DNA from: a virus
Length of the DNA stretch: 27,554 bases
Reading direction: 5' to 3' (one strand)
IMG/VR virus record: IMGVR_UViG_3300020122_000082
Location: 1-27,554 of that record
Positions 1-27,282 of this stretch are shown here, one piece after another. Every line of letters begins with the position of its first letter. The first letter of the stretch is position 1. A model generated the notes under the pieces. The model saw only the letters and a program-made list of their open reading frames with translations, made no database searches and was not told the DNA's origin. The position numbers and the translations under genes are program-made.

Positions 1-3000
1 AGTTGGCTGGCTTCAGGATATTGATAAGGTTTTCAAGTACTTCTTTGACTTTCGCACTACTAGCTACTATACCAAAAGAATCGAAGATATTCACAGTAAA
101 ATCAAAAGCTCCAGTTGCTCTATTGACCAATGTGGTGAAATCTGTATTCAAAGCGTTCAACCTGTCAAAATCTATCAGTAAAGTTGTGTACAGGTCTTTG
201 GTAACCGGGAAAACGGTACTTAGATTATTGCTAAAGTTGGCATCTAGTGGCTCTCCATATGGAGCATAGATTGGTCTAGAAAGGTTGCTCACTCTGAAAT
301 TGTCCAACAAAGTGAAGATTGGATTGTTTTGTTTGAAATCAGTTCCAATATACAAGGTGTTGATTGGATCCTTGAAAGAAATGCTACCAATTAGGCTATA
401 ACCATCTCCTACTGCAACAGAACCGTAGACCATTGGGAACTTACCGTATTGCAAACGTTGACCAAATAGAACATCAGTATACTGATATCCGTCTAGGAAT
501 AGTCTCATTTCATCGCTACCTAAACCACCATTTAGTTTGTAGCTAGCCTTGACACGGTGCCAAGTATTTCTGGCCCAACGAACTGGCGCCCTGACTACGA
601 AGTCGGTGCCCGAAGCCGTGATAGAGAAATTGATGTAGCCGTATTGGTCTTTGTAAATTGAGAAGCGGTCGCCCTGGAGTCCGGCTGGGATGTAGGTGAC
701 AACAACCTTAGAATTTTGCGCAGGTAGCTTCCTGTTGAGTCTAACGACTTGGGTGTTGAGCGTGACGTTCTTGTCGTTTGTGGTTTGATAAGTAACGATG
801 ACATCTACATTTGGTTGAGGTAGAGGTATACCTAAGAAAATGGTTTTACCCACTGCGTGGTTGCCTTGAGATCCTACGCTTCCACCAGCAAAATAATCCT
901 TCTCAGTAAGGTCTCCAATAATTTTTACTGTGATTACTTGTAAGATTGGTTGAGATACAGCGACAATAGATGTACCCAATGCCGTTGACTCTTCTTGAAT
1001 AGCATGCTGAGTATCAATCTCTAGCTGACCGCCAGCAAAATAATCAATCCTCCGGTCACCGGACGCCAGTGTTACACTAAGAACTTTGGAAGCTGGTGAA
1101 GAAATTTTGACAGCTACATTGCTAGCACTAGTTACTGTTTCAGTAATAGCACCAAAGGCATCAAAGTAGTATCTAGTATTTGGATCATTGGATGTATCAA
1201 ACATCGGGCTCATCCAGAATTCGATAGTTCCTTGCTTTCTAGTATCCAAAATTCCATCATTAGATAGAACAATTGGTTCATCCAAAATAACCATGCTCTG
1301 TCCGAAGTTATCGCTGACAGTAAAATCTGATTGAAAATGCTTATGGTCATCATTAGTACTGGCATAGAAGCTAGCATCATTGGTGAAGGGGAAACTATCG
1401 AAATCAATCAACACCAATGTATTGGCATCAGGCTTTGGCGGCTTGAGAGAGTTGAAGTCTTTAGTAATAGAGTGCTTATTGAGAGCAACTACCTCACCAA
1501 TTCTAGTATCCGTTAGCATAATAGAGTAGATGGTCAGTTGATCGATGACGGCGTTAGCCTGACCACTTCCTTGGAAATCGCTTCCAATGAACATTTTAGT
1601 GTTGAGTGGGTCAAACTTTATTCTTGCATAAGTTGAGTACTCTAGTTCGTAGAATCCTTGGTCAAGGAAATACTGTTGACCTGGTAGGACGTTAGCCTCT
1701 AGAGTAAAATATCCGTTTTGTAATCCGCTACGGTATTGTGTAGTGTTCAATACCTGGTAAATTGCATTAGCAAAAGATGGCAGTGGAACCGGGAAAGAAG
1801 CCACAGTTGACTGAATGTTTACTGAGTGCCTATCGGCAGACAATCCAGTAATCAAATAGAATCCAGCTACGTTAGGTGGAGAATGGATAATCATGTAGTT
1901 GTTGATATCCAGGCCGCTAAACGTGTTGTTTAAATCGGTAACAACATTATCAACGCCATTACCAGAGAGACTATATCCGCCGTTGATATGGTAACTGTAT
2001 CTAATAACAGGGGCCAATCCACTAAATTCGCTGTGGGTAATTGGGTATTTTTCTTTTACTTCCAGGGCCAAAGCATTCTTGCTTGGATTGATTGGCTTGA
2101 CGTTTACCCACACATAGTTCAATGAGATAAATGTGTTGGTGAAATCCAATGTTCCATAGTTGGTGAAGGTAATGGTCTCATTGATGGTGTTGATTCCAGA
2201 AACGCCGTTGATAGTAACTTGAACTGGAGATGAGAAATCAACGTTGGTTCCACTAATAGTAACTTGGATGGTTCTACCAATTTGCGCATTGGATGGTTTG
2301 GCGGTTGGCAGATAGTTAGATACAAAAACGCCGGCCATCAATGTAGAATTGGCTGGTCCAATAGCTACAGTTGGAGTGATTACCCTGAATATGTTAGCTT
2401 CGTCCAAATTGATTGGAGGAGGTAACTGAGTCTGTAGGACGTTCTCTACCTGTGAACTCCAAACATAGTACTGCTTCTTAATATCTTTGAAATTGAGACC
2501 CAGTGTCCTAATTAGAATCAAGTCATTTAGGAGAACATCATTAGAAACGGTTAGTATGTTATTGAAGTTATTGTCTTGGGTAATACTGTAAGCTGGGTTA
2601 AGTGCCCTTACTCCAGGAATTTCATTTTCCACATTTGAATAAACTTGGAAGCTGGCACCCGATAGAGTTAGTGGTGCTGGATCGGTAATGGTGAGTGAGT
2701 GTCCATTAACCTGTACGATACTGTATGTCAACGCAAATGAGGAGTTATCTACCCTGAGCAAAAATCCAGGCTTAACACCCAGCAGACCGAAGTTGGTTCC
2801 AGGAGATGTTACTACAGCATTACCACTAAAGGTATTTAGATCGGTTCCGGTAGTAAATGTGTGGATAGTTGTAACTGCAATATTTGGAGCAATGTTAATA
2901 TCCGATGATACTGAGTATTCAGATTGATTAATAGAGAACCTACCACCATTCATAGTGATTGGCATATCTGAGCTAAGAGTCAAATCTTGGCCATTAATTT

Positions 3001-6000
3001 GTAGGATAGTATATCCGATTGGGGAGAATCCATTTTCATTAATGTGGATAGTATCTCCAACAGAAATATTGAATTGGCTAAAATTGATACTCGAAGAAAC
3101 TAGTGGTGATCCCTGTAAAGTAGATAGATCGTTCGAGCCAATGATATCACGAGTGGCTAGACCAACTATCTCTTCTGGGTTGACAGTTCTGAATTTCTCA
3201 TGTAGATATGGTTGTAGTTTTTGTCCATACTTGATGATGTTTGGAACTTCCAAGCCATCAATGAACAAATGCATCTCATCACGATTGTTTCTTGTATTTA
3301 ACTTCCAAGAAGCGGCAACCATATGAGGAACGTTATTTCTCCAAGCTGAGATATCAGCGCTGATGGCATACATCTTATGATCTCTATCATAAACTCGGAA
3401 GTTCATGTAACCACTTACATCTTTGAAAATAGAGAGCCTGCTTGAATCTTTAGTTACTCCAAAATCCAAAATAAAGTGCTCCACATCAGAGACAAAAGTG
3501 ATGCCCTCATCAATACCATAACCATCGAATGTTGGCCTAATAGTTAGATTGACTTTACTAGTTCCAGTAAAGGTGCTCATATTAGCGGGTTTAACTGGAC
3601 TAATAGGTTTGACGTCATAGAATTTTCCAGATGAGAGAATCTGGAATTGATACATATGATTATCTGGAGCCACATAACCATCGATAATCTCAACATACCA
3701 ACGGAAGAAACTTCCAGAGATATCCTTATCATAGTAGATGAAGATACCGTCTTTATTCTTGTTTGGGCGACCCGTGATATTTGATTTCTTGCTTAGAGAG
3801 AAGTTATTCTTATTGTCGATAGATGGATGATACTCAGCTCCTCCAATAAATACTCGGAACGGATCAATAGCATATCCATCTCTAGTGATATTGAATGTTA
3901 ACTCAGCATCATTATCGATACCGTTCCATTGAGGTACAACCCAGCTTTCAAAGGTACCTTCTTCAAGTCTTAGATTTGAGTTGACTGGCATGGTGATTGT
4001 TTGACCTGGTTGATCAACAAGAACGCCATTGCCATAATGGGCTGGTAGAAGCTGGAAGCTTCCATTAGTATCTATGCCAACTGGGAACAATAAGCTGCTG
4101 CCCAAAGACCATATCTCGAATGCGGATTCTATGATCTCAGGATCCACGTGAGTGATTATCTGGCCAATGTTCTTAATAGCGGCAACAGTTGGTCCTTGGA
4201 TAAACGAAGATAGGGCGGCTTGCAGAGCCTCACGATATCTTTCTCTTTCCAAACTCAAATCAAAAGTAGATAGGTCTGGTACATTTACCAAAGTTCCAAA
4301 ATTCCTTAGAAGCGCATCACGTAATGCACCTACTTTATAGGATACATAGTAGTTAGAATCTGTAGGCAGATTTTTATTTTTACGGAAGTCAATTACGTTA
4401 TCCCCATACTCATAGCTAACCAAAATTTCATCAGCAACATAAGTGTAGTCAGTAAAGAAATCTCCCTTGTTGTAATCAACAATGACTCTTTCAAGTGGTA
4501 CTATAGCAAATGAGTACTGAACATCGCATAAATCACCAACCTGTGGAGATCCAATGCCAGGCAAAATTAGCTTGAGCGGATTACCAGGTACAACAGTACC
4601 GGTTCCATTCCACAAAGGCTGAGAGTCTGATATTCTTACCACACTGAATGTAAATGTGATACCTGGTGAAAGAAATGGGACATTCTCGTTTAGAGTAATG
4701 AAGTAGTTGGAGCCGTCAAATTGAACACTTTCAAATGACTGCCTGTTAATAGTGCCAACGGTTATGTTAAAGTTACTACTGGTACTTACGATACCGAAAT
4801 TGATTGGATTACTGCTATTGGTTAGATCGGTGAACTCGTAAACGCTTCTAACAAACTTAACTGCATTAGTTACTCCGGGAACAAATGTAGATTGAACAAA
4901 TGCGCCTACTTTATTCTGCAAAATTTGATATGGCGAAGAAGTAACTCCATTTAGGAATGCTTCATCTGAAGAATCCAAATTCTCAGGAACGATGAATCCC
5001 TCTCCAAAATTTAGGTAAGAGAATTGTTTGTTCTTAGGATTGAGTACACTGATACGATAATAGATATCATCTACACTGACAACATGTGGGAAGTCAGGGA
5101 CAATGCTATTTTTCTTGTAGGTAGCTGTTCCAATGTCATTATTCTGTGTTTGTGAAACTGCAACATATACTACGCCATTTTTGTAATCAACGGTGTATTC
5201 ACCAACTGCAGCTAGCCTATCTACGTTGAAAGTGCTATTAAACTCTTGGTCAAACCACATTTCCCTGACAAACACATTACCATTAGAAAATACCAAACTC
5301 GTATTGAAAGAAGTGGCTATACCATCCTGTGAAGAGTTGATGATGGTATTGTTTGCCATCAAAATTACGAAGATACGAAGATTATTGGCGTTAGTAGTGG
5401 TAGTATTGATTCCTAAAAGCTCATTGGTAACGGTAAAGAATTTAGCGTTCTCTCCAGACTCTTGCAAAATTCTTGGAGGACTATTGAATCTAAAGTAAAC
5501 TTGGTTATCATTCCATCTGTCCAATACATAAATCTCTCCAGATGTCTCATTAAAAATCTGGAAAACATTTGTGATTGGTGAATTTAGGGTCGTTAGAGAA
5601 TTAAGTGCTGTTAGTCTATTTTGAACTCTTTCGTTAATTGACTCAATGTGTGCATCGGCCACGTAGTCTACACCAGGAACTAAAACTTGTTCATAGCTGA
5701 AATCTATAGTACCAGCTTGGTTAACTAAATTACCCAATGGCAATGCCACTAATTCCAATAAATCACTGTCATAGACGTAATCTATTTCTGGTGTGAATGT
5801 GAATTTGTAAAAGTATGTTGCTAATGGAGGAGATGGTCCAGTACCATCATTGTTAGAATCTGCTCCATACACATAGATAGTTCCGGTAGAATAGTCTATA
5901 GAGTAAATGCCGGGAGTCGATGGGAGGGCGCTGAGGCTAAATGGAATCTCAGTTAGAAATGCTGGATGTGGCATTCCTGTTCCAGAATTTGGATCGATAA

Positions 6001-7141
6001 AAATTACGCCACCAACTGTGGGTGTGTTGTTGCTGGCATCCGTAATTGGGGCGTGCTTCAGACTGAATATGTTAATGATAGGTGGTAGCACCTCTCTTAC
6101 AGATTGTAAAGTAGAGAATGTGCTAACGGTAGTAGGATCAACTTGAATTCCTAATCCTTTATATTCATATTCAACAACTACATGGAAGATTTGATCCAAT
6201 GAGAAATTGGGGTCACTTAAGATAGACTCATTTATCTTAACTTGATTGTCTTTGAGAAGCAAATAACTGGAAGCAAAATCCTGATCGAAAGTAGAGTTAA
6301 GTAGCTGGTACCCTAATTTCTCAATATCATATTCAAAAACTGGATTAGTAGTCGTCAAAGTAAAAGTAATGCCAGTTACTTTAGTAACCGGGTTATTACT
6401 TAGATTGAAGGTGAGGGTATTGATATTAAAAGTCCCAGTACTGTCATTAGAAGATGGCTTGATAATTTCTGTTGCCAGTTGTCTTTGCAGAGTAACCGGA
6501 TAAGATGGGAAACTATCGAATACAAATGCAGCAGGAACTGGAGCGGCAGATGGTCCGAATCCTACCCTGAATACATCATAAGCCGCTTCTTCATATAGTC
6601 TTTCAAATGGAACTTCACTCTTGGTATGAAGCTCATCTGCTATAGTAAATGATAAGTAATTTTCATTACCGAGCTGTCTAATGTCGTAAAGAGCGCGGGA
6701 AAAATTAATGGCGATAGACTGTATGTACTTATTTACAACTGTAGTTGGATCGCTGGTATTGTAGATATTGTTCTGATAGAACGACTGTAAATAATCATTA
6801 ACTGGATTATCTGATGGTAGAGGACCAATGATGATTAGTTTGTTGGAGACTCCATCTTCGGAAATTTTAGCGTCTCCATTTAGAGATTCAAATGGGTGAA
6901 GCTGGGTGGATTGAAACCGTAGGAAGTAGTCTGCGTATGGCGTGAGCGGTTGACAGGTAATAGATAATGTGTTACCAGTAACAGAAACTTGTAGAATTTC
7001 TGAATCTGGAACATTGGAGGTCTGTGAGAGGATAGAAACGTTAGCAGGCACTAAATTACCAGTCAATGATTCTGTAAAAGAAACATCGATGCTGGTGCTG
7101 CTGTTTATAACGTTATTGACTACCCTAAGAGTTGCTATCAT
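1..7141 (-). CDS. Giant LamG-module tail fibre / receptor-binding protein candidate (C-terminus outside window)
   Basis: An uninterrupted reading frame of 2380 codons starts at ATG 7141 and is still open at the left edge. The start overlaps the stop of the J-like gene (ATGA), and no good ribosome binding site precedes it, so translational coupling is likely. The protein is beta-rich. LamG/concanavalin-like modules are visible near residues 1040-1330 (WKLNTRNNRDEMHLFIDGLE), 1790-1890 (FIGSDFQGSG) and 1900-2300 (FWMSPMF, then WHRVKASYKLNGG, DEMRLFLDGYQ, LDNFRVSNLSRP). A further module starts at the left edge (LLIDFDRLN). Two internal duplications are visible: residues 1338-1405 against 1434-1500, and GIYSIDYSTGTIYV (410) against GEYTVDYKNGVVYV (647). 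LamG modules bind sugars or proteins in many extracellular proteins. A receptor-binding or outer baseplate fibre role is inferred from this and from the position after the J-like gene. It could also be a wedge protein decorated with lectin modules. Confidence 0.75.
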   Translation of the reverse strand, partial: MIATLRVVNNVINSSTSIDVSFTESLTGNLVPANVSILSQTSNVPDSEILQVSVTGNTLSITCQPLTPYADYFLRFQSTQLHPFESLNGDAKISEDGVSNKLIIIGPLPSDNPVNDYLQSFYQNNIYNTSDPTTVVNKYIQSIAINFSRALYDIRQLGNENYLSFTIADELHTKSEVPFERLYEEAAYDVFRVGFGPSAAPVPAAFVFDSFPSYPVTLQRQLATEIIKPSSNDSTGTFNINTLTFNLSNNPVTKVTGITFTLTTTNPVFEYDIEKLGYQLLNSTFDQDFASSYLLLKDNQVKINESILSDPNFSLDQIFHVVVEYEYKGLGIQVDPTTVSTFSTLQSVREVLPPIINIFSLKHAPITDASNNTPTVGGVIFIDPNSGTGMPHPAFLTEIPFSLSALPSTPGIYSIDYSTGTIYVYGADSNNDGTGPSPPLATYFYKFTFTPEIDYVYDSDLLELVALPLGNLVNQAGTIDFSYEQVLVPGVDYVADAHIESINERVQNRLTALNSLTTLNSPITNVFQIFNETSGEIYVLDRWNDNQVYFRFNSPPRILQESGENAKFFTVTNELLGINTTTTNANNLRIFVILMANNTIINSSQDGIATSFNTSLVFSNGNVFVREMWFDQEFNSTFNVDRLAAVGEYTVDYKNGVVYVAVSQTQNNDIGTATYKKNSIVPDFPHVVSVDDIYYRISVLNPKNKQFSYLNFGEGFIVPENLDSSDEAFLNGVTSSPYQILQNKVGAFVQSTFVPGVTNAVKFVRSVYEFTDLTNSSNPINFGIVSTSSNFNITVGTINRQSFESVQFDGSNYFITLNENVPFLSPGITFTFSVVRISDSQPLWNGTGTVVPGNPLKLILPGIGSPQVGDLCDVQYSFAIVPLERVIVDYNKGDFFTDYTYVADEILVSYEYGDNVIDFRKNKNLPTDSNYYVSYKVGALRDALLRNFGTLVNVPDLSTFDLSLERERYREALQAALSSFIQGPTVAAIKNIGQIITHVDPEIIESAFEIWSLGSSLLFPVGIDTNGSFQLLPAHYGNGVLVDQPGQTITMPVNSNLRLEEGTFESWVVPQWNGIDNDAELTFNITRDGYAIDPFRVFIGGAEYHPSIDNKNNFSLSKKSNITGRPNKNKDGIFIYYDKDISGSFFRWYVEIIDGYVAPDNHMYQFQILSSGKFYDVKPISPVKPANMSTFTGTSKVNLTIRPTFDGYGIDEGITFVSDVEHFILDFGVTKDSSRLSIFKDVSGYMNFRVYDRDHKMYAISADISAWRNNVPHMVAASWKLNTRNNRDEMHLFIDGLEVPNIIKYGQKLQPYLHEKFRTVNPEEIVGLATRDIIGSNDLSTLQGSPLVSSSINFSQFNISVGDTIHINENGFSPIGYTILQINGQDLTLSSDMPITMNGGRFSINQSEYSVSSDINIAPNIAVTTIHTFTTGTDLNTFSGNAVVTSPGTNFGLLGVKPGFLLRVDNSSFALTYSIVQVNGHSLTITDPAPLTLSGASFQVYSNVENEIPGVRALNPAYSITQDNNFNNILTVSNDVLLNDLILIRTLGLNFKDIKKQYYVWSSQVENVLQTQLPPPINLDEANIFRVITPTVAIGPANSTLMAGVFVSNYLPTAKPSNAQIGRTIQVTISGTNVDFSSPVQVTINGVSGINTINETITFTNYGTLDFTNTFISLNYVWVNVKPINPSKNALALEVKEKYPITHSEFSGLAPVIRYSYHINGGYSLSGNGVDNVVTDLNNTFSGLDINNYMIIHSPPNVAGFYLITGLSADRHSVNIQSTVASFPVPLPSFANAIYQVLNTTQYRSGLQNGYFTLEANVLPGQQYFLDQGFYELEYSTYARIKFDPLNTKMFIGSDFQGSGQANAVIDQLTIYSIMLTDTRIGEVVALNKHSITKDFNSLKPPKPDANTLVLIDFDSFPFTNDASFYASTNDDHKHFQSDFTVSDNFGQSMVILDEPIVLSNDGILDTRKQGTIEFWMSPMFDTSNDPNTRYYFDAFGAITETVTSASNVAVKISSPASKVLSVTLASGDRRIDYFAGGQLEIDTQHAIQEESTALGTSIVAVSQPILQVITVKIIGDLTEKDYFAGGSVGSQGNHAVGKTIFLGIPLPQPNVDVIVTYQTTNDKNVTLNTQVVRLNRKLPAQNSKVVVTYIPAGLQGDRFSIYKDQYGYINFSITASGTDFVVRAPVRWARNTWHRVKASYKLNGGLGSDEMRLFLDGYQYTDVLFGQRLQYGKFPMVYGSVAVGDGYSLIGSISFKDPINTLYIGTDFKQNNPIFTLLDNFRVSNLSRPIYAPYGEPLDANFSNNLSTVFPVTKDLYTTLLIDFDRLNALNTDFTTLVNRATGAFDFTVNIFDSFGIVASSAKVKEVLENLINILKPAN
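2642..2842 (-). repeat. Internal protein repeat, copy 2 (about 67 residues)
   Basis: This segment encodes residues 1434-1500 of the LamG protein, beginning DLNTFSGNAVVTS and ending near GASFQVYS. It aligns along its length with the copy at 2926-3130: DL-T---G---V-S, then NF, a central Y-I-Q-NG, L-T-, and a closing G--F. The two copies are separated by about 28 residues and have diverged, which indicates an old duplication of a small beta domain rather than a recent one. Confidence 0.6.
2926..3130 (-). repeat. Internal protein repeat, copy 1 (about 68 residues)
   Basis: This segment encodes residues 1338-1405 of the LamG protein, beginning DLSTLQGSPLVSS and ending GGRFSINQ, with a central GYTILQINGQDLTLSS. 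It matches copy 2 at 2642-2842, where the centre reads TYSIVQVNGHSLTITD. It lies immediately C-terminal to the first LamG-like module. Confidence 0.6.
4508..4645 (-). repeat. DGKELW-type beta module, copy C, in the LamG protein
   Basis: This segment encodes residues 833-878 of the LamG protein: SVVRISDSQPLWNGTGTV, followed by a short beta segment with ILPGIGSPQVGDLCDVQY. It resembles two segments of the neighbouring J-like protein (8227-8358 and 8767-8913) in the pattern S-V-R-x-D----LWN, then a G-rich turn, then I-LP--------D-V-V-Y/F. Sharing between two adjacent structural genes suggests module exchange or common ancestry of their beta domains. Confidence 0.5.
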
Positions 7142-20800: not shown

Positions 20801-22914
20801 TGATATGGATTAGTGATACCAACTAAGTTGGGATCGTTAATGACACTCATTGGACCACTTTGAACAAAGATTCCAATACCCTGTTTCCATTTATAAGCCA
20901 AACCATCTGGAGCATAGAATACTCTAGTTAGCCTACCAGTAACACGGTCAATGCTTTGGTCTTGAATATAGTTTCCCTGTGTGGCTTTTTGCCCTGCTAG
21001 AGATCCTTGCTTATATTTTACTAAAGAACTTTGACCGGTTTGTGATAATAGATAGACGTTTTCATCAAGCAGTTGTGGTGAGCCGCCGGTTTCTGCACCA
21101 TTTGTAGTGATGGTGTCGAAATTAGATTTGAATGGAGTGAGGGGATCGAAAATCAAACCATTGAAAGCGTTAGCTCCTGGTTTGAAATTGACTTTTCCCT
21201 GCTTGAAATACAGTGAGTTATCACTGCCACTTATATCAATTGTAAATTTGCCACCCGCCCAGTTATCTAGAGCAGCCTCTACTACTCCCGCAAAAACATG
21301 AGTTCCTTCTTTTTCAGAAACGAATTGTCCTCTCATTGTAGCCCAAAGATAATTTGGGAATGAGGCGCCAACAAACATAGATTTTTCTGCTTGTACAGCT
21401 ACATTCTTAGATGGATTGAAAAGAGTATCGAACTCATTTTTGAAACCAGTGATAGTATTGTTAATGTTTTGAAGAATACCAAATCCACTGAACATCTGTG
21501 TCAAACCAGATAGAACCTTACTGTCAAATTGACTCTTGGATTTCATATAAATATGCACTACATCCATTGGCTGAACAATTAGTTTGCCAGAGAAATTAAA
21601 ACGCAACTTTCTACGAGCATAGTTGTATGACTTGTTGTTAGCGGTAAAATTACCTGCTGAATTAGATAGTAAAGTTAGCTGCTGATAAATAGTGCTGATG
21701 ATTGATTGAAAAGCTTGCAGCTCTGAAGTTCCAACCAACGACTTAATATGGGTGCCTGGTAATTTAGTAGCTCTAGTGGTATCAAGACCATCATAACCGG
21801 CAATTTCACCACCTCTTAGATAGTCATCAGTGACGCTGATTCCACTATTTCCACCTAAACTTAGTGCGCCAAGTGGGTTGTAAGTAAATTGAATTTCTAC
21901 GCCTAGACGATCTATAATGGCTCGTACTCTCTTGCCAAGTAGTGTATCCGGTTCTACTTTGAAAGTAATAGGGCTGGCATTTCTTGTTGCTCTGATAGAG
22001 TTTAATTTATTTTGCTGGTCTCTAAGAACCTGATTAGAGCTAGTAACACCGAATTGAAAAGTCTTGCTGTTGTAAAATAGATTAGTTGCATCACTGAGCG
22101 CGACTTCGATATCATAATCTGTGATTAGCATTGACTCATAAGGATCAGATATGCTAAGAGAGAATCTACCAGGAGATTTGATATCGGTAGTCGTAGTAGT
22201 GCTAATTCTGGTAAAATTGGTAATCTCAATAACCCCAGTGCCACCACCATATATGGACGAGAACAAATTAGTGGGATCGGTAATCCATGTAGTATATGGA
22301 TTGCTTTGATTGAAAGCATATAGAGTGCGTAATCTATCTACCGTCTTAACGAAATTAGAGGCGTCTTGAGTTGTAAATGGGTTAGGTCCTTGTCCAAGGG
22401 CGCCAAATAGATTGTTACCGGTCCCAAGTCCATTTCCTGTTGCCGCATCTGTAAGAGATATAATAACAGGGACTAATTGATTATCGATGTCACCCACTGC
22501 CGCCGTAATTTTCTGAATCTTACTTAGCTTTTCTAAGGCGGCAATTTGAGTGCATTTATTCTGCATCAAAATGCGCATAGCCTTATAGTAGAGTCTTTCA
22601 TCAGAATCCATAAAGTCAGGTCGATAATTCTCGGCAATAGAAGAGAACATTCTCTTTTTAACCATAACGGTAGCGTCTGGTTCTTGCCATAAAATATCAA
22701 ACTGTTTCGGATCTGTATTGTAAGGATCTCTTCTCAGATATCCCTCTTCTACATATTTTCTTTCTGCAGATTGATCAAATTGAGACGCAAAATCGCCTAG
22801 GGAACCATACTTTACATTTTGACCATCAATGACGGCATCTAACGATGTAGTTGTATTTTCCCCCAGGTTAAATTGGCTGCTGATCTGATCTGCTAAATCA
22901 CCTAAAAAACTCAT
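17866..22914 (-). CDS. Giant baseplate hub protein, gp27/gpD/XkdQ-like (1682 aa)
   Basis: The protein shows hub features in order: SPGRFSLSISDP (about residue 243), a gp27-like barrel segment GKLIVQPMDVVHIYMKSKS (about 445-463), AGVVEAALDNWAGGKFTIDI with SGSDNSLYF (about 536-570), the HVADLLNLEVFCDSQGHVRV strand typical of late-control/hub proteins (about 960-980), and QPGEVIFLEDRNLLFYVSSV followed by SLDVG-GFTTTLELTYG (about 1395-1435). A predicted coiled coil lies near 781-872 (LDSKLQQLSDLTRAVTGL; INELQAKIKNLKGDID). Typical hubs have 350-450 residues, so this one is expanded about fourfold. It would form the centre of the baseplate, beneath the tube and above the spike. The start ATG 22914 overlaps the previous stop (ATGA) and has GCAGGA upstream. 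The last 130 residues are polar and probably flexible. Confidence 0.75.
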   Translation of the reverse strand: MSFLGDLADQISSQFNLGENTTTSLDAVIDGQNVKYGSLGDFASQFDQSAERKYVEEGYLRRDPYNTDPKQFDILWQEPDATVMVKKRMFSSIAENYRPDFMDSDERLYYKAMRILMQNKCTQIAALEKLSKIQKITAAVGDIDNQLVPVIISLTDAATGNGLGTGNNLFGALGQGPNPFTTQDASNFVKTVDRLRTLYAFNQSNPYTTWITDPTNLFSSIYGGGTGVIEITNFTRISTTTTTDIKSPGRFSLSISDPYESMLITDYDIEVALSDATNLFYNSKTFQFGVTSSNQVLRDQQNKLNSIRATRNASPITFKVEPDTLLGKRVRAIIDRLGVEIQFTYNPLGALSLGGNSGISVTDDYLRGGEIAGYDGLDTTRATKLPGTHIKSLVGTSELQAFQSIISTIYQQLTLLSNSAGNFTANNKSYNYARRKLRFNFSGKLIVQPMDVVHIYMKSKSQFDSKVLSGLTQMFSGFGILQNINNTITGFKNEFDTLFNPSKNVAVQAEKSMFVGASFPNYLWATMRGQFVSEKEGTHVFAGVVEAALDNWAGGKFTIDISGSDNSLYFKQGKVNFKPGANAFNGLIFDPLTPFKSNFDTITTNGAETGGSPQLLDENVYLLSQTGQSSLVKYKQGSLAGQKATQGNYIQDQSIDRVTGRLTRVFYAPDGLAYKWKQGIGIFVQSGPMSVINDPNLVGITNPYQQPFAGLDVMNVLSLLISGTPYNYATYFKATQNLYGITGDPQTKQDPSYSFINSLRTSLSKTNALWGNFIPFKNIIMSEEAVAKSMQAQQTITQANTDLDSKLQQLSDLTRAVTGLTAVKDLSLPGQIGQTTSAKINELQAKIKNLKGDIDGSIAAFQGATAQFLSQSNTSKSYDSNYLVDGKNDPSDSSSRKELRKQTNYLTRRMSYDVRGNSDKNLFIVDDYYDVDYDIAAFNTALDKGPATYATEYSDVAAQISHVADLLNLEVFCDSQGHVRVRPPQYNRMPSSVFNRMIYLKHSTGVQIFPEFLNNLFVNQLDTLRDRIEVLEDQIRLDCAILGVYPSIDTTGDEVATAFIKNIANLGGSDISGLAGGSLFNFISDSSDSITDVGNLVKAANQDTSNGANSLALNNFQAIKDAGTSNNILFSNAERYYILDQALQGQNQAQGGQNVASTPSTSVFQQTVVQQLITRIQTKSGQYITSKDYLTSSGPNQPVEIDTGQTIDVFKVANELTSYIQKWQTAVKLFYHTIKNSAEFKSLDDDATTSNALLNPGTFSSGYIPEVYEHMIEDESYDDYGPGSGTRYVIKRAQIRNIRIGERAPLYTTVEVHGTFPGFDETQGGGGDLGGGFSATKAIAIDYDMWRNYGFKQGYVINVPFLTDPISQLGPYASIILSRDRHQVLSGSLTISGNEYMQPGEVIFLEDRNLLFYVSSVSHSLDVGNGFTTTLELTYGHGIGEYIPTVMDTIGKMIYKNREISDMVIHRQESSANEENIGVIQLSAKNTSAPLVTTGQENSAPNPFTETNTKVFNNILYNTAYTIGLNGASGNNIKAHIEVRIYYDNAHPVNSQLMSMANGIVNQLVDPQGGGPTAISYQNQPVVNPGLPSDSVKVVTVNMDDQTSRKSPSQKAIDAARGQMANVSTNTGSASSSNPIGNDDGTDASAMSANNNALRTALFSYIIDCWVSFEQVSSAVANSTTN

Positions 22915-23867
22915 AGAAGTCCTGCTAATGCTCCTACTATACCACCCGCATTACCAGGATTTGCGACCACACCAATACTACTATTTGTATTTAATTGAGT
23001 GTTTCCATTGAAAGAACCAGGAGTTGTGTACTGGCTTGGCCCACTGGTTGGGCTGTTGTGCCATGGGAAATAGTTAGTTCTGTATCCTCTTCTCTGAGTT
23101 ACCATAAAGATCATGTTGTAATCTAGTAAAAAGTTATCGGCTCTTTCAGTAACAGTCATGCTATCGAAGTAACCACGATAAACCCAGCCATTGTAATACA
23201 TTTCAACACCAAACGCGACAGAGGCTAGTGATGGAATATTTCTAGCTGACAAGTTATTGTTTGGAGAATCAAGACCTAAAATGCCACCCAATAGTCCGGC
23301 GCCACCAGCAGCAGCGGTCACACTGTTTCCACCAATAGCTTTACCAATAGCTCCACCAATACCTTGAACTAGGTTATTAGCTAGGTCTGCTGAAGCATTA
23401 TTTCCAGCAAGAGTTAAACCAGTTGCATCGAATGCGTACTGCTCAGCACGGTAAAGTTCATAGAGCATATTGATGCCCTCAATACCAGAACTACCAGTAG
23501 TACCACTTATGCTAAGTTGACTTAGATCTTCTCCCCAATACTGTAAGGTATATCCTCCCTTAGTTCTTTCTTTGCTGATTAACTTTTTATGAGTGTATGT
23601 TATGTTCTGTGGGTTTATGAACATTCTAACTGTTCCGAATTGTGGAACGAACCAAGTAACTATATTTCTACTGATCTGTCCTGTTACACCGGGAGTAATC
23701 TTAGTAAATGGCAATCCATTACCATCAGCCGATGGTGTAGAAGCCACTAAAAATCCGTTAGATTCAAAGGAAGCCAAATTGCTTTGTGTAAGTGGGTTAG
23801 CACCATTCAAAGTAGATTGAACGTTGCTAATTCCATTTATAGCTGAGTCAAGAGAAAAGGTTGCCAT
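22911..23867 (-). CDS. Tail tube / baseplate adaptor candidate (318 aa)
   Basis: The protein combines FGTVRMFINPQNITYTHKKL and LQYWGEDLSQLSISGTTGSS (about residues 75-125) with GVEMYYNGWVYRGYFDSMTV and DYNMIFMVTQRRGYRTNYFP (about 220-265). This looks like the small virion proteins found between tape measure and hub in contractile-tailed phages, which join the tail tube to the hub (role of T4 gp48/gp54/gp53 or XkdP). A glycine/alanine-rich, apolar loop separates the two halves (about 165-195), and the C-terminus is Gly/Asn-rich. It follows the tape measure by 11 bases with TAAGGATAAAC before ATG, and its stop overlaps the hub start. The exact role is inferred from position and pattern. Confidence 0.55.
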   Translation of the reverse strand: MATFSLDSAINGISNVQSTLNGANPLTQSNLASFESNGFLVASTPSADGNGLPFTKITPGVTGQISRNIVTWFVPQFGTVRMFINPQNITYTHKKLISKERTKGGYTLQYWGEDLSQLSISGTTGSSGIEGINMLYELYRAEQYAFDATGLTLAGNNASADLANNLVQGIGGAIGKAIGGNSVTAAAGGAGLLGGILGLDSPNNNLSARNIPSLASVAFGVEMYYNGWVYRGYFDSMTVTERADNFLLDYNMIFMVTQRRGYRTNYFPWHNSPTSGPSQYTTPGSFNGNTQLNTNSSIGVVANPGNAGGIVGALAGLL

Positions 23868-23878
23868 TTAGTTTATCC

Positions 23879-26254
23879 TTAGTGCGGGGCGCCTGTTTGT
23901 GGTGAAACTGTCTTGTCTGTCTGTGAGTGATTGATGTCTCTTCCACAGTGTGGGCATACCCCTGTGAGATTGACTGTAATTGCAGATCCTGCTGCTAACA
24001 TAACTGGAACAGCCTGCCCGGCATTCCCTTGAGTTAGACCGCCTGGCGTCTGCCTTCCACCAACAGTAGCTGTAGCTCCTAGCCCATTTGAAGTTGGTGG
24101 TAATGGTGGCGGCAACTGACGAGCCGTTCTTACGGTATTTTGTGGTGGATTGAAAGTAAATTTGGTTCCTGTTGCAGCAGTTTGAGTCGTTGGGCTGCCA
24201 GTCTGTGGAGTTGTTTTTCCTCCAGCTCCAGTTGTTGTTGGAGCCTCTGGTTTAGCAACAGAGAATGCTTGTTGCGCATTTGTCATGGCGGCTCTCTGCT
24301 CGGCTGACAAAGTACTCCAAACAGCCTTTTGATCATTGATAGATTTAACCATCTTATCATTTGCTTGTTGAATGGATTCTTTGTTACCACCTTTAATAGC
24401 TTCTTTGAAACTATCCCATGCATCTTTAACGGTTCTTGGTAGATCAGTAGCGATCTTTGCTACTGATTGTAATGCATCATTTGCTGGAACTCCAATACCA
24501 GTTCTACCAGGAGTGATTCCTCCACCACCGCCACCAACTCCTCCGGCATATGCTCCGGTATTTCCTGTGCCTAAAATTTCTCTAGTAGTTTTCTTATTAG
24601 CAAATCCAGCTTGCAAAACAAGACTGTTTAAAGACTGATTGATTTTAGTTAATTCAGTATATGAATCTTTTTGAATTTTGTCGCCAGCCGACATGGCCTT
24701 TTGCATTTGATTGTCTTTTGATTTATCCTCGGTAAGCTGTGTTGGAAGTGCCTTACCTTCATTCATGGCTTTTAATAAAGCCTGCGCTTCTGGTACAGAT
24801 TTTGCTAGACCACCTAATGGGCCTTGCTGTAAAAGTTGGATCTGACGCATATAGTTAGCTGCCGCGCTTTCACTCTGCATCGCTTGTTCTCTAGAAACAA
24901 TTGGTCCAGTTAGTCTCTTGATGGTAGTTTCTGCATCTTTTCTTAGACCCTCAAAATCACCCTTAGCAATTCTGTCTTGAACCGAGAAGGCTCCTCTCAA
25001 ACCACCAGGGCCTCCAGACATAGTAGACATGAATGCTTGTTGCCCAACTGTCATACCAGTCATAACTTTAGTATAGTTCTTAAACATTTCGATAGCATTG
25101 GATGCTGGCACACCTACAGATTCAAGACTTGCAGTATAGTTTTCCATAGCATCTGCCATCCCTGTAGTCATATTAGAAACGTTAGCCCCGCCCATTACAA
25201 ACATCTTAAAAGCATCTGTTGATTCCATTAAAGCGCTTCTAACATCTTGAATATTAGCACCTAAAGTTCCAGCTATAGTAGACATTCTTGCTTGAAGTGT
25301 AGTTGCTGCACCAGCAGTAACATTAGCATCATCCTGCACTGATTTGTAGTGCTTTAGAACATCATTAATATCACTCAGAACCTCTTCTTCTTTTCTTCCA
25401 GAGATAGCTGCTATTTTAAGGCTTTCTTCGAGTAGGAAATTCGCCTGACCGGCAATCTCTGTTTTTTGTGTCAAGAGACTCAGGCCACCAGGCATCTTGT
25501 TGATAATTGCCATATAAGAAGCCGCCTGCTCTTGAGCTTTTTTGCTGCCACCCAAAGCTGCCGAGGCTCTATCAAGGCTTGCACTATATTGTTTTGTTGT
25601 GTCATCTAATTTTTGAAAGTCTGATCCAACCGCTTTAAGCAATTCTTGCATACCGCTACCTGCGAGTGTCATTTGAATCATTGAATTTTCTAGCTTCTTG
25701 GCATTATCAGCAGATATGAAAAAAGCTTTTGCAGAAGCCGTTACTCCATTAGCAAGATCACTACCAATTGCTGCTACTGCTTTTGATATTTCTGCAGGTG
25801 TTTTACCCATAGAAGCCATAGTGGACATTGTTATCTGCTTCAATTTTTCTATTCCTGCCATAGCCATCTGTGTGCCTGGGGCAGACTCAATGATTTCAAA
25901 TAGCTCTTTAAACTGTGAAGAATATGTAACTAAGCGAGTGGTATCTACTCCAGCTATGTCGTTGAAAGCTTCTCTGGCTCCTAAAAGAGAGGTTGTTAGA
26001 ATTCCAAATTGACGAGACGTTTGATCTGTCATAGAATTCAAACCATCAAATGACACCCCGGCCATCTTTAATTTTTCAGTCAAGCCAGCAAAAACAGTAG
26101 ATACTTTACTACCAATAGTTCCTACACCTTCTAGGGCTATTCCAGAAGCAGCAGTATACTGTTCAAACGTAGACCACTTAGCGTTCTGATCGTCTGTTGG
26201 TGCAGTAATAGTTGGTGGTGTTGCTGGATCTGGTTGTACTGGTGGGTCAGCCAT
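23879..26254 (-). CDS. Tape measure protein (791 aa)
   Basis: The gene follows the frameshifting chaperone pair, the standard tape measure position. The protein is mostly alpha-helical and rich in Ala, Met, Gln and Ser up to about residue 580, with an alanine-rich N-terminal half and many short heptad-like helices (LTEKLKMAGVSFDGLNSM; SASLDRASAALGGSKKAQEQ). A glycine run (about 573-582) is followed by a Pro/Thr/Gly-rich linker, then a C-terminal CPHCGRDINH motif (C767, C770, H776) that could bind zinc. At about 0.15 nm per residue, 791 residues would imply a tail near 120 nm; this is a rule-of-thumb inference. Start ATG 26254 lies three bases after the chaperone stop with AAAGGA upstream. No peptidase or transglycosylase motif is evident. 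Confidence 0.85.
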   Translation of the reverse strand: MADPPVQPDPATPPTITAPTDDQNAKWSTFEQYTAASGIALEGVGTIGSKVSTVFAGLTEKLKMAGVSFDGLNSMTDQTSRQFGILTTSLLGAREAFNDIAGVDTTRLVTYSSQFKELFEIIESAPGTQMAMAGIEKLKQITMSTMASMGKTPAEISKAVAAIGSDLANGVTASAKAFFISADNAKKLENSMIQMTLAGSGMQELLKAVGSDFQKLDDTTKQYSASLDRASAALGGSKKAQEQAASYMAIINKMPGGLSLLTQKTEIAGQANFLLEESLKIAAISGRKEEEVLSDINDVLKHYKSVQDDANVTAGAATTLQARMSTIAGTLGANIQDVRSALMESTDAFKMFVMGGANVSNMTTGMADAMENYTASLESVGVPASNAIEMFKNYTKVMTGMTVGQQAFMSTMSGGPGGLRGAFSVQDRIAKGDFEGLRKDAETTIKRLTGPIVSREQAMQSESAAANYMRQIQLLQQGPLGGLAKSVPEAQALLKAMNEGKALPTQLTEDKSKDNQMQKAMSAGDKIQKDSYTELTKINQSLNSLVLQAGFANKKTTREILGTGNTGAYAGGVGGGGGGITPGRTGIGVPANDALQSVAKIATDLPRTVKDAWDSFKEAIKGGNKESIQQANDKMVKSINDQKAVWSTLSAEQRAAMTNAQQAFSVAKPEAPTTTGAGGKTTPQTGSPTTQTAATGTKFTFNPPQNTVRTARQLPPPLPPTSNGLGATATVGGRQTPGGLTQGNAGQAVPVMLAAGSAITVNLTGVCPHCGRDINHSQTDKTVSPQTGAPH

Positions 26255-26257
26255 TTA

Positions 26258-26578
26258 TCATTCCTTTAAAGCTGCTCTGCGTTTTCTTTTAGGCAGAGGC
26301 TTTTCTTGTGGGACATCAAACATTCCAGGCAAACCTTCCTTAACCATTCGCATGGATTCTTCCATATCTTCATCAGTAGATTCATGAACATTATCATTAA
26401 GCATTTGTTGTACTGCTTCAGCATTCCAAAAGGAACCTAATAGATATGCGTGATTCTTAGCAAGTTCGGCTTCATCTCTATGATCACCTAGCCATTGTTC
26501 AAAAAGCCACATTTTACGAACCGGGTCCATTTCCGTAAGTTCAGGATCACCGATATCCACAGTATTCTTCATCTTCAT
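26258..26578 (-). CDS. Tail assembly chaperone, downstream part (frameshift domain)
   Basis: This 106-aa ORF is acidic in its first two thirds and ends with a basic stretch (LPKRKRRAAL). It contains a WLFEQWLGDHRDEAELAKNH segment and helix-rich residues around SFWNAEAVQQML. It sits in the -1 frame relative to the 222-aa ORF, and no stop codon separates its frame from the slippery site at 26617-26623. ATG 26578 has no Shine-Dalgarno sequence, which argues that it is mainly made as a fusion of 341 aa (222 + 13 + 106). In lambda (G/GT) and many other tailed phages such pairs bind the tape measure during tail assembly. Its stop lies three bases before the tape measure gene. Confidence 0.75.
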   Translation of the reverse strand: MKMKNTVDIGDPELTEMDPVRKMWLFEQWLGDHRDEAELAKNHAYLLGSFWNAEAVQQMLNDNVHESTDEDMEESMRMVKEGLPGMFDVPQEKPLPKRKRRAALKE

Positions 26579-26586
26579 TAAATGCC

Positions 26587-26623
26587 AATGAAAGCGGTGT
26601 TCCGGTTCATTTATTATTTTTTT
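26587..26623 (-). promoter_or_regulatory. Programmed -1 ribosomal frameshift site with downstream hairpin
   Basis: On the minus strand the 222-aa ORF ends GAC TTA AAA AAA TAA. The heptamer A AAA AAA (26617-26623) is a perfect X XXY YYZ slip site in the zero frame, and the stop follows at once. A -1 slip continues ATA ATA AAT GAA CCG and runs without stop into the 106-aa ORF. Five bases after the heptamer an imperfect hairpin can form: AATGAA pairs with TTCATT, and inside it CGG pairs with CCG around an AACA loop (26587-26611). The spacing suits a stimulatory structure. Confidence 0.8.
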
Positions 26624-27282
26624 AAGTCTTCTACAATCTCCTTAACCTGCTCTTCTGTCTTAGGACTGTATCTATCCTGTGCTTCTTTAGACAAGATAAC
26701 ATATTCATTATATAGTCTAATCAATAGGGCATGGTCAAGTAATTCAATGAAATATAGACGATCATCTAGTTCTCTTGAATTTAGAAACTGGTCAATTTCT
26801 ACACCAGAAACTACAGTTAATGAGCGGGCTAATAGCTGTCTGCGAGTCTCAAAAATGAACTCAACAGAACCGTCAAACTCAGCGGTAGCTACAATAGCAT
26901 CACGCAATTCTTGTGAGGTTAGCGTCTGTAACTTATACATTTGTCCGCCTATCTCAACGTCTCTGGTTAGCCTGGTCATACCAATCAGCAATTCTATACG
27001 TCGTCTAGCGCCGTCAGATAGCCTTTCTTTACCCTCACGCTTGGCCTTCTTGGCAGCGTGGATCTCTTTTTCAATGTCAGACATTTCTCTAAGACCAGGC
27101 TGTTGCATTTGACCTTGAAATTCTCTCATAGCTCTTTCATCAAAAGCTGGAATAGGTTCATGCGGCACGCGCATTTGTCTCTGTTGTGGTTGCTCATAAC
27201 CACTATCATCAGGGACACTGAATTCTCTCATAGGCTGACCCTGAAACTGTTTACTTCCAATTGGACTATCAAATTTTGGCAT
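26614..27282 (-). CDS. Tail assembly chaperone, upstream part (frame 0)
   Basis: The 222-aa product starts at ATG 27282, which has AGGAG seven bases upstream. Residues 1-60 are Gln/Pro-rich and probably disordered. The charged residues about 65-95 (SDIEKEIHAAKKAKREGKER) are followed by a compact domain (about 97-205) with RRRIELLIGMTRL, GGQMYKLQTLTSQELRDAIV and a helix rich in Arg and Leu, as in phage tail assembly chaperones that regulate a membrane-active tape measure. It ends in Lys-Lys-stop at the slippery heptamer. A longer reading from a TTG within the upstream terminator (27339) is rejected. The order chaperone - frameshift ORF - tape measure supports the call more than the sequence itself. 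Confidence 0.75.
   Translation of the reverse strand: MPKFDSPIGSKQFQGQPMREFSVPDDSGYEQPQQRQMRVPHEPIPAFDERAMREFQGQMQQPGLREMSDIEKEIHAAKKAKREGKERLSDGARRRIELLIGMTRLTRDVEIGGQMYKLQTLTSQELRDAIVATAEFDGSVEFIFETRRQLLARSLTVVSGVEIDQFLNSRELDDRLYFIELLDHALLIRLYNEYVILSKEAQDRYSPKTEEQVKEIVEDLKK

Follow-up and report, generated by a model that had tools for sequence, protein, structure and literature searches.

A predicted −1 frameshift signal with an internal Shine-Dalgarno sequence and a long-range stem in the tail chaperone genes of very large phages

Two reading frames overlap at the viral locus studied here, and how the second one comes to be translated is the question that it raises. A frameshift between tail chaperone genes is reportedly conserved in long-tailed phages, as Xu, Hendrix and Duda are said to have described in 2004. 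All coordinates below refer to the window, the whole 27,554-nt stretch analysed (IMG/VR record IMGVR_UViG_3300020122_000082, positions 1-27,554), and all features named lie on its minus strand.

The first frame, ORF1 (222 aa; 26614..27282, from ATG 27282 to TAA 26614), ends in GAG ATT GTA GAA GAC TTA AAA AAA TAA TAA. The heptamer A_AAA_AAA (26617..26623) is thus read in the zero frame and directly adjoins a UAA stop (26614..26616), which a second UAA (26613-26611) follows. From the last A of the heptamer, the −1 frame runs through 13 codons, ATA ATA AAT GAA CCG GAA CAC CGC TTT CAT TGG CAT TTA, before it reaches ATG 26578, the start of a 106-aa ORF. A −1 slip on A_AAA_AAA would produce a 341-aa fusion with the junction peptide DLKKIINEPEHR, the frame staying open for 119 codons after the slip until TGA at 26260-26258; the 106-aa ORF is the part of this gpT-like extension (26258..26617) that follows the ATG. 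No SD-like motif precedes ATG 26578. The initial annotation had described this junction in the same terms, as an in-frame A AAA AAA directly before TAA, a 13-codon −1 continuation into the 106-aa ORF and a second ATG that lacks a ribosome binding site, and each of these elements is found at the positions given here. In the 27.5 kb scanned, the slip-site A7 is the only A/T homopolymer of at least seven nucleotides.

Identity and surroundings of the gene pair

The assignment of ORF1 and ORF2 as a tail assembly chaperone pair upstream of the tape measure gene, which the initial annotation had proposed, is supported by gene order, by profiles that match Bacillus phage G and by resemblance to the HK97 chaperone fold. 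The pair is preceded on its 5′ side by genes for the tail sheath and a tube-like virion protein, and followed on its 3′ side by those for the tape measure, the tube initiator and baseplate proteins. In one relative (L003), the series reads sheath (phrog_279, 2.8e-15), tube-like virion protein (phrog_985, 0.006), ORF1/ORF2 and tape measure (phrog_167, 3.9e-4); a second relative (L068) has the same order, with a tape measure matching Pfam TMP_3 at 8.7e-4. Position designates the window’s tape measure candidate, a protein of 791 aa encoded directly 3′ of the chaperone pair (23879..26254), and a putative tail tube initiator of 318 aa lies at 22911..23867 (PF23980, E 4.4e-4; phrog_1011, 1.6e-6). 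We also noticed a conserved CPHCGRDINH-like Cys pair near the C-terminus of the tape measure candidate, with CPHCGKDINH in L003 and CIKCKREIEG in L068 as its counterparts, which is possibly a small metal-binding motif. At the far end of the window, a 2,380-aa ORF (2-7141), open at the window edge, lies immediately downstream of a Baseplate_J protein and is possibly a tail or receptor-binding protein.

The profile built from ORF1 (A4) matches phage G gp181 with an E value of 9.6e-11, and that built from the extension (A5) matches the extension of gp182 with 1e-7. Of 56 members, 19 are matched weakly by phrog_25000, a PHROG profile for tail assembly chaperones; phrog_2792 and phrog_2992 also match weakly, and Pfam returned nothing useful for either ORF. 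The predicted fold of ORF1 is most similar to the HK97 tail assembly chaperone 2ob9 (Z 8.1 over 101 residues at 3.7 Å) and next to YqbN 3klu (Z 7.7), both scores being near the tool’s caution limit. When the ORF1 model was compared with BFVD, phage G gp181 was found with an E value of 9.1e-7, and five matches within the first 11 ranks are phage G gp181/182 or carry the name tail assembly chaperone. BLAST searches of 50,697 phage records with ORF1 and ORF2 gave no match, phage G being reached by profiles only. Bacterial reference genomes likewise gave no match to the chaperone pair, and profile comparison detected no homologue of ORF1 or ORF2 in Tunturiibacter phage Tunturi_5 or LR745208.

Conservation of an internal Shine-Dalgarno sequence and a long-range stem

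From protein scans with ORF1 and ORF2 and from their alignments, we assembled 64 distinct loci, that is the window and 63 IMG/VR relatives. These are well diverged. Identity to the window falls to 36% in ORF1 and 45% in ORF2, the median pairwise identity of the 143 nt 5′ of the heptamer is 59%, and clustering of 63 loci yields 62 groups at 95% nucleotide identity and 55 at 80%. The largest contigs that bear relatives reach 480,838 bases, and the signal belongs to myovirus-like phages of very large size, a clade that is mostly uncultured. The scans worked with short peptide motifs, of which NEPEHRF and AELAKNH lie in ORF2, so that members lacking both ORF2 motifs would escape them; two loci recovered via ORF1 only (L100 and L104) carry the same frameshift signal.

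Upstream of the heptamer, the window contains an internal Shine-Dalgarno sequence, AAGGAG (26638..26643), at a distance of 14 nt. At least 6 nt of AAGGAGGT occur at this fixed position, 12-14 nt 5′ of the heptamer, in 38 of 61 loci, and 24 of the 61 have the perfect 8-mer; in six of them no AAGGAGGT motif of 4 or more nt is present. GAG encodes Glu at the SD position in 51 of 55 loci, its background use being 0.23. According to empirical rules for −1 signals of bacteria, an SD lies 6-17 nt before the slip site, and a hairpin, 17-140 nt in size, begins 4-10 nt after it (PMC4066793); the position of the internal SD lies within the first of these ranges.

Downstream, GAACCGG (26602..26608), which starts 8 nt 3′ of the heptamer and 5 nt 3′ of the stop, is complementary to CCGGUUC (26518..26524), 74 or 77 nt further on. 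The stem formed by the two arms, P1, closes about 75 nt, and both its start and its length lie within the ranges of PMC4066793. The initial annotation had seen an imperfect hairpin five bases downstream; a structure does begin at that distance from the stop, but it is a long-range stem with an inner helix. Both this long-range nature and the internal SD go beyond what the initial annotation reported. RNAalifold, run on the alignment, returned no consensus pairs, and the stem was then tested by explicit pair counts, a synonymous-codon null and single-sequence folding. All seven P1 pairs are present in 55 of 61 loci, compared with 0.3 expected if the proteins are kept and synonymous codons are drawn at random. 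P1 appears in the minimum-energy structure of 53 of 59 loci, with a median pair probability of 0.99. The Pro codons in the arms are CCG in 54/62 and 56/59 loci (background 0.09) and the Val codon is GTT in 60/60, whereas the codons for Phe9, Leu13, Lys15, Asp24, Pro25 and Ile27 between the arms are used at background; the codon constraint is thus local to the arms. Compensatory changes, which are few and are counted as sequences rather than events, were observed in L068 (GAAUCGG:CCGAUUC, with L055 as a G-U intermediate) and in L082 (GAACCUG:CAGGUUC, with L074 as a mismatched intermediate).

Within P1, the inner helix P2 is of the CAUCG:CGAUG type. In the window, its arms are CACCG (26595..26599, alignment columns 25-29) and CGGUG (26548..26552, columns 75-79). 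One of its pairs is UA in 44 rows and CG in five, and the CG rows are probably one lineage.

The conservation of the arms could also have a different cause: the −1 frameshift may be real, with A7 and SD sufficing for it, and the arms may serve RNA stability, processing, or DNA or RNA binding. Three loci (L034, L089 and L090) have lost P1 yet keep A7, so that P1 is not indispensable, and a nucleotide-conserved block outside the stem indicates that other cis elements are present. Set against this, the 8-nt spacing of P1 is that expected of −1 stimulators, and L068 and L082 preserve the pairing, beyond the sequence alone. We therefore consider it unlikely that the arms serve only such another role, and favor P1 as a stimulator of the shift.

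Two further patterns of codon use were seen near these elements. The Asp codon before Leu-Lys-Lys (26627-26625) is GAC in 42 of 62 loci, and the Asp codon before the P1 3′ arm (26527-26525) is GAC in 34 of 59, compared with about 17% of Asp codons in each case. P1 does not explain this preference, since GAT at 26527-26525 would extend it. The second nucleotide-conserved block spans 26438-26467, that is −1-frame codons 51-60, and reads GAA CTW GCT AAA AAT CAC GCA TAT CTA TTA, with Ala encoded by GCA in 61/62 loci (background 0.24) and His by CAC in 56/62 (background 0.20). The search for a partner found no consistent pairing, candidates scattering from +100 to +150, and the block is not repeated elsewhere.

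The heptamer, its stop codon and the −1 frame

A_AAA_AAA is kept in the zero frame in all 64 distinct loci. In each of them the run is exactly seven A, always with T on its 5′ side and with T or C on its 3′ side, and A8 or longer occurs in none. Because Lys codons elsewhere are AAA in only 62-66% of cases, the invariance of both Lys codons points to a constraint at the nucleotide level, and an in-phase A7 in 64 of 64 loci is far beyond chance.

The zero-frame stop adjoins the heptamer in 61 of the 64 loci (UAA in 57, UAG in four); in the other three it follows one codon further on (CCA TAA in L034, TCA TAA in L070 and L073). By contrast, the distance from slip site to zero-frame stop in surveyed phage tail chaperone genes averages 26 nt (SEA-PHAGES) or 36 nt (Xu set) (PMC10885494). 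The abutting stop singled out as unusual by the initial annotation is therefore a conserved feature, and phage G shares it: its gp181 ends GAA TTA AAA AAC TAG.

Indeed, Bacillus phage G (NC_023719) resembles the window’s virus in the order of sheath, structural proteins, chaperone pair and tape measure, and in having homologues of both ORF1 and the extension. Its gp181 and gp182 are annotated as tail assembly chaperone, gp182 being a two-piece join, and a slip at A_AAA_AAC predicts 115 + 252 = 367 aa, which is the length of the gp182 entry in BFVD. The two differ in the heptamer itself, A_AAA_AAC in phage G and A_AAA_AAA here, and in the proteins, the phage G ORF1 having 115 aa compared with 222 here and its extension being longer, at 252 aa. 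The flanking elements differ as well: phage G has only AAAGGA as an upstream motif, and at the place of the P1 start it has a predicted hairpin that is short and local, GCGAC-7-GUCGU.

The same 341-aa protein would arise from ordinary translation if RNA polymerase added an A within the A7 of some mRNAs. A7 can slip somewhat, and this may be why AAAAAAA is under-represented in enterobacteria whatever its frame (PMC4066793). High-efficiency bacterial slippage, however, has been reported for runs of nine (PMC5009743), whereas the run here never departs from seven, and transcriptional slippage requires neither an in-frame SD nor an RNA stem, both of which are conserved. We judge it very improbable that the fusion is made in this manner, and continue with a slip of the ribosome.

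The −1 frame is itself under coding constraint from the slip site onward. The bridge that follows the heptamer encodes IINEPEHRF in the −1 frame, and its divergence at the first, second and third codon positions of that frame is 0.176, 0.075 and 0.268. A zero-frame reading would make the second codon position the most variable; with the least divergence at position 2 and the most at position 3, the bridge codes in the −1 frame. No relative has a stop codon in it. As a separate candidate, +1 frameshifting was excluded: in the first 18 relatives examined, the +1 frame almost always closes within three codons. In 59 of 61 loci, the −1 frame contains no start codon before codon 8, so that NEPEHRF cannot be reached by initiation. 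Homologues thus retain the heptamer and the −1 frame, on which the initial annotation’s reading depended, and a start from which the second ORF could be translated independently, the alternative that it had named, is present upstream of the conserved N-terminus in almost none of them. That ORF2 is made as a separate protein without fusion, through re-initiation at an internal ATG coupled to termination of ORF1, can hardly be entertained: the window does offer a −1-frame ATG at codon 14 and another ATG directly after the double stop, but the latter is in the zero frame, opens only a short peptide and is replaced by ACG or TTG in other loci, the first −1-frame ATG varies in position from codon 2 to codon 38 (most commonly at codon 29 or 30) with an SD-like 4-mer before it in only four of 64 loci, and no start codon precedes the conserved N-terminus NEPEHRFxW in those 59 loci.

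A proposed course of the shift and its meaning for tail assembly

The conservation of slip site, stop, SD and long-range stem together makes the switch of frame look programmed. On the strength of these sequence comparisons, it is very probable that a programmed −1 ribosomal frameshift lets a single start give rise to two tail assembly chaperones. In this mechanism, most ribosomes on ORF1 would terminate at the UAA that adjoins A_AAA_AAA, and the short chaperone of 222 aa, a gpG-like homologue of phage G gp181, would be released. A fraction would slip back by one base, with tRNA-Lys re-pairing from AAA to AAA, and translate 119 codons more to give the 341-aa long chaperone. The internal SD would pair with the 16S rRNA of the elongating ribosome, and the branched stem closed by P1 would stand at the mRNA entrance, each helping the slip. 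We infer from the conserved elements that the fusion is produced and that the SD and stem stimulate its production. By analogy with lambda, the short and long products would bind the tape measure and tube proteins.

Two routes of slipping, which would lead to the same protein, both fit the sequence. In one, AAA_AAA occupies the P and A sites; in the other, the UAA is already waiting in the A site. The spacing to P1 suits either, being 8 nt when counted from the heptamer and 5 nt when counted from the stop. If the UAA does wait in the A site, the release factor would plausibly compete with slipping; the initial annotation had suggested that such competition could set the ratio. Tentatively, and with rather more doubt than confidence, we suggest that the slip occurs while UAA or UAG stands in the A site and the ribosome is held by the SD behind and by P1 ahead, and that the ratio of short to long product is set by how much release factor is available. 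An engineered precedent exists in CUU_UGA followed by a downstream pseudoknot, where a single peptidyl-tRNA slips by −1 with the stop in the A site and the release factor missing (PMC6321510). That construct likewise has its structure 5 nt after the stop; it is an artificial +1 site, whereas the site here is a natural A7. Were the suggestion true, the locus would be a natural stop-coupled −1 frameshift that controls phage tail assembly.

Frameshifting in tail chaperone genes is a known and widespread kind of recoding (PMC5009743). As in lambda gpG/gpGT, two overlapping frames between the tube and tape measure genes are joined by a −1 shift, giving a short product and a C-terminally extended one. 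The flanking signals have counterparts in E. coli dnaX and in IS911 and the IS3 family, which combine an A-rich heptamer, an upstream SD stimulator and a downstream stem (PMC5009743, PMC4066793). The genes of dnaX and IS911 are unrelated, however, dnaX slips on A_AAA_AAG and IS911 uses a three-way junction, as opposed to the A_AAA_AAA with adjoining stop found here; in E. coli, A_AAA_AAA promotes shifting less strongly than A_AAA_AAG does (PMC5009743). In the literature covered, which takes in little of the subscription journals, we found no published description of a conserved internal SD with a long-range stem at a tail chaperone locus. Judged by its sequence, the case is one of ordinary tail-chaperone frameshifting in kind, with a signal that is unusually complete and deeply conserved.

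The determinants of the efficiency of tail-chaperone frameshifting are seldom visible from sequence. Here, diverged loci define the heptamer, the position of the stop, the internal SD and the stem arms with their compensatory changes, so that the link between the shift signal and the chaperone ratio becomes directly testable. The locus is also a natural instance of possible competition between termination and slipping at a single codon, and it provides an annotation rule for a gene pair overlooked in huge-phage genomes, where the second ORF lacks a separate start.
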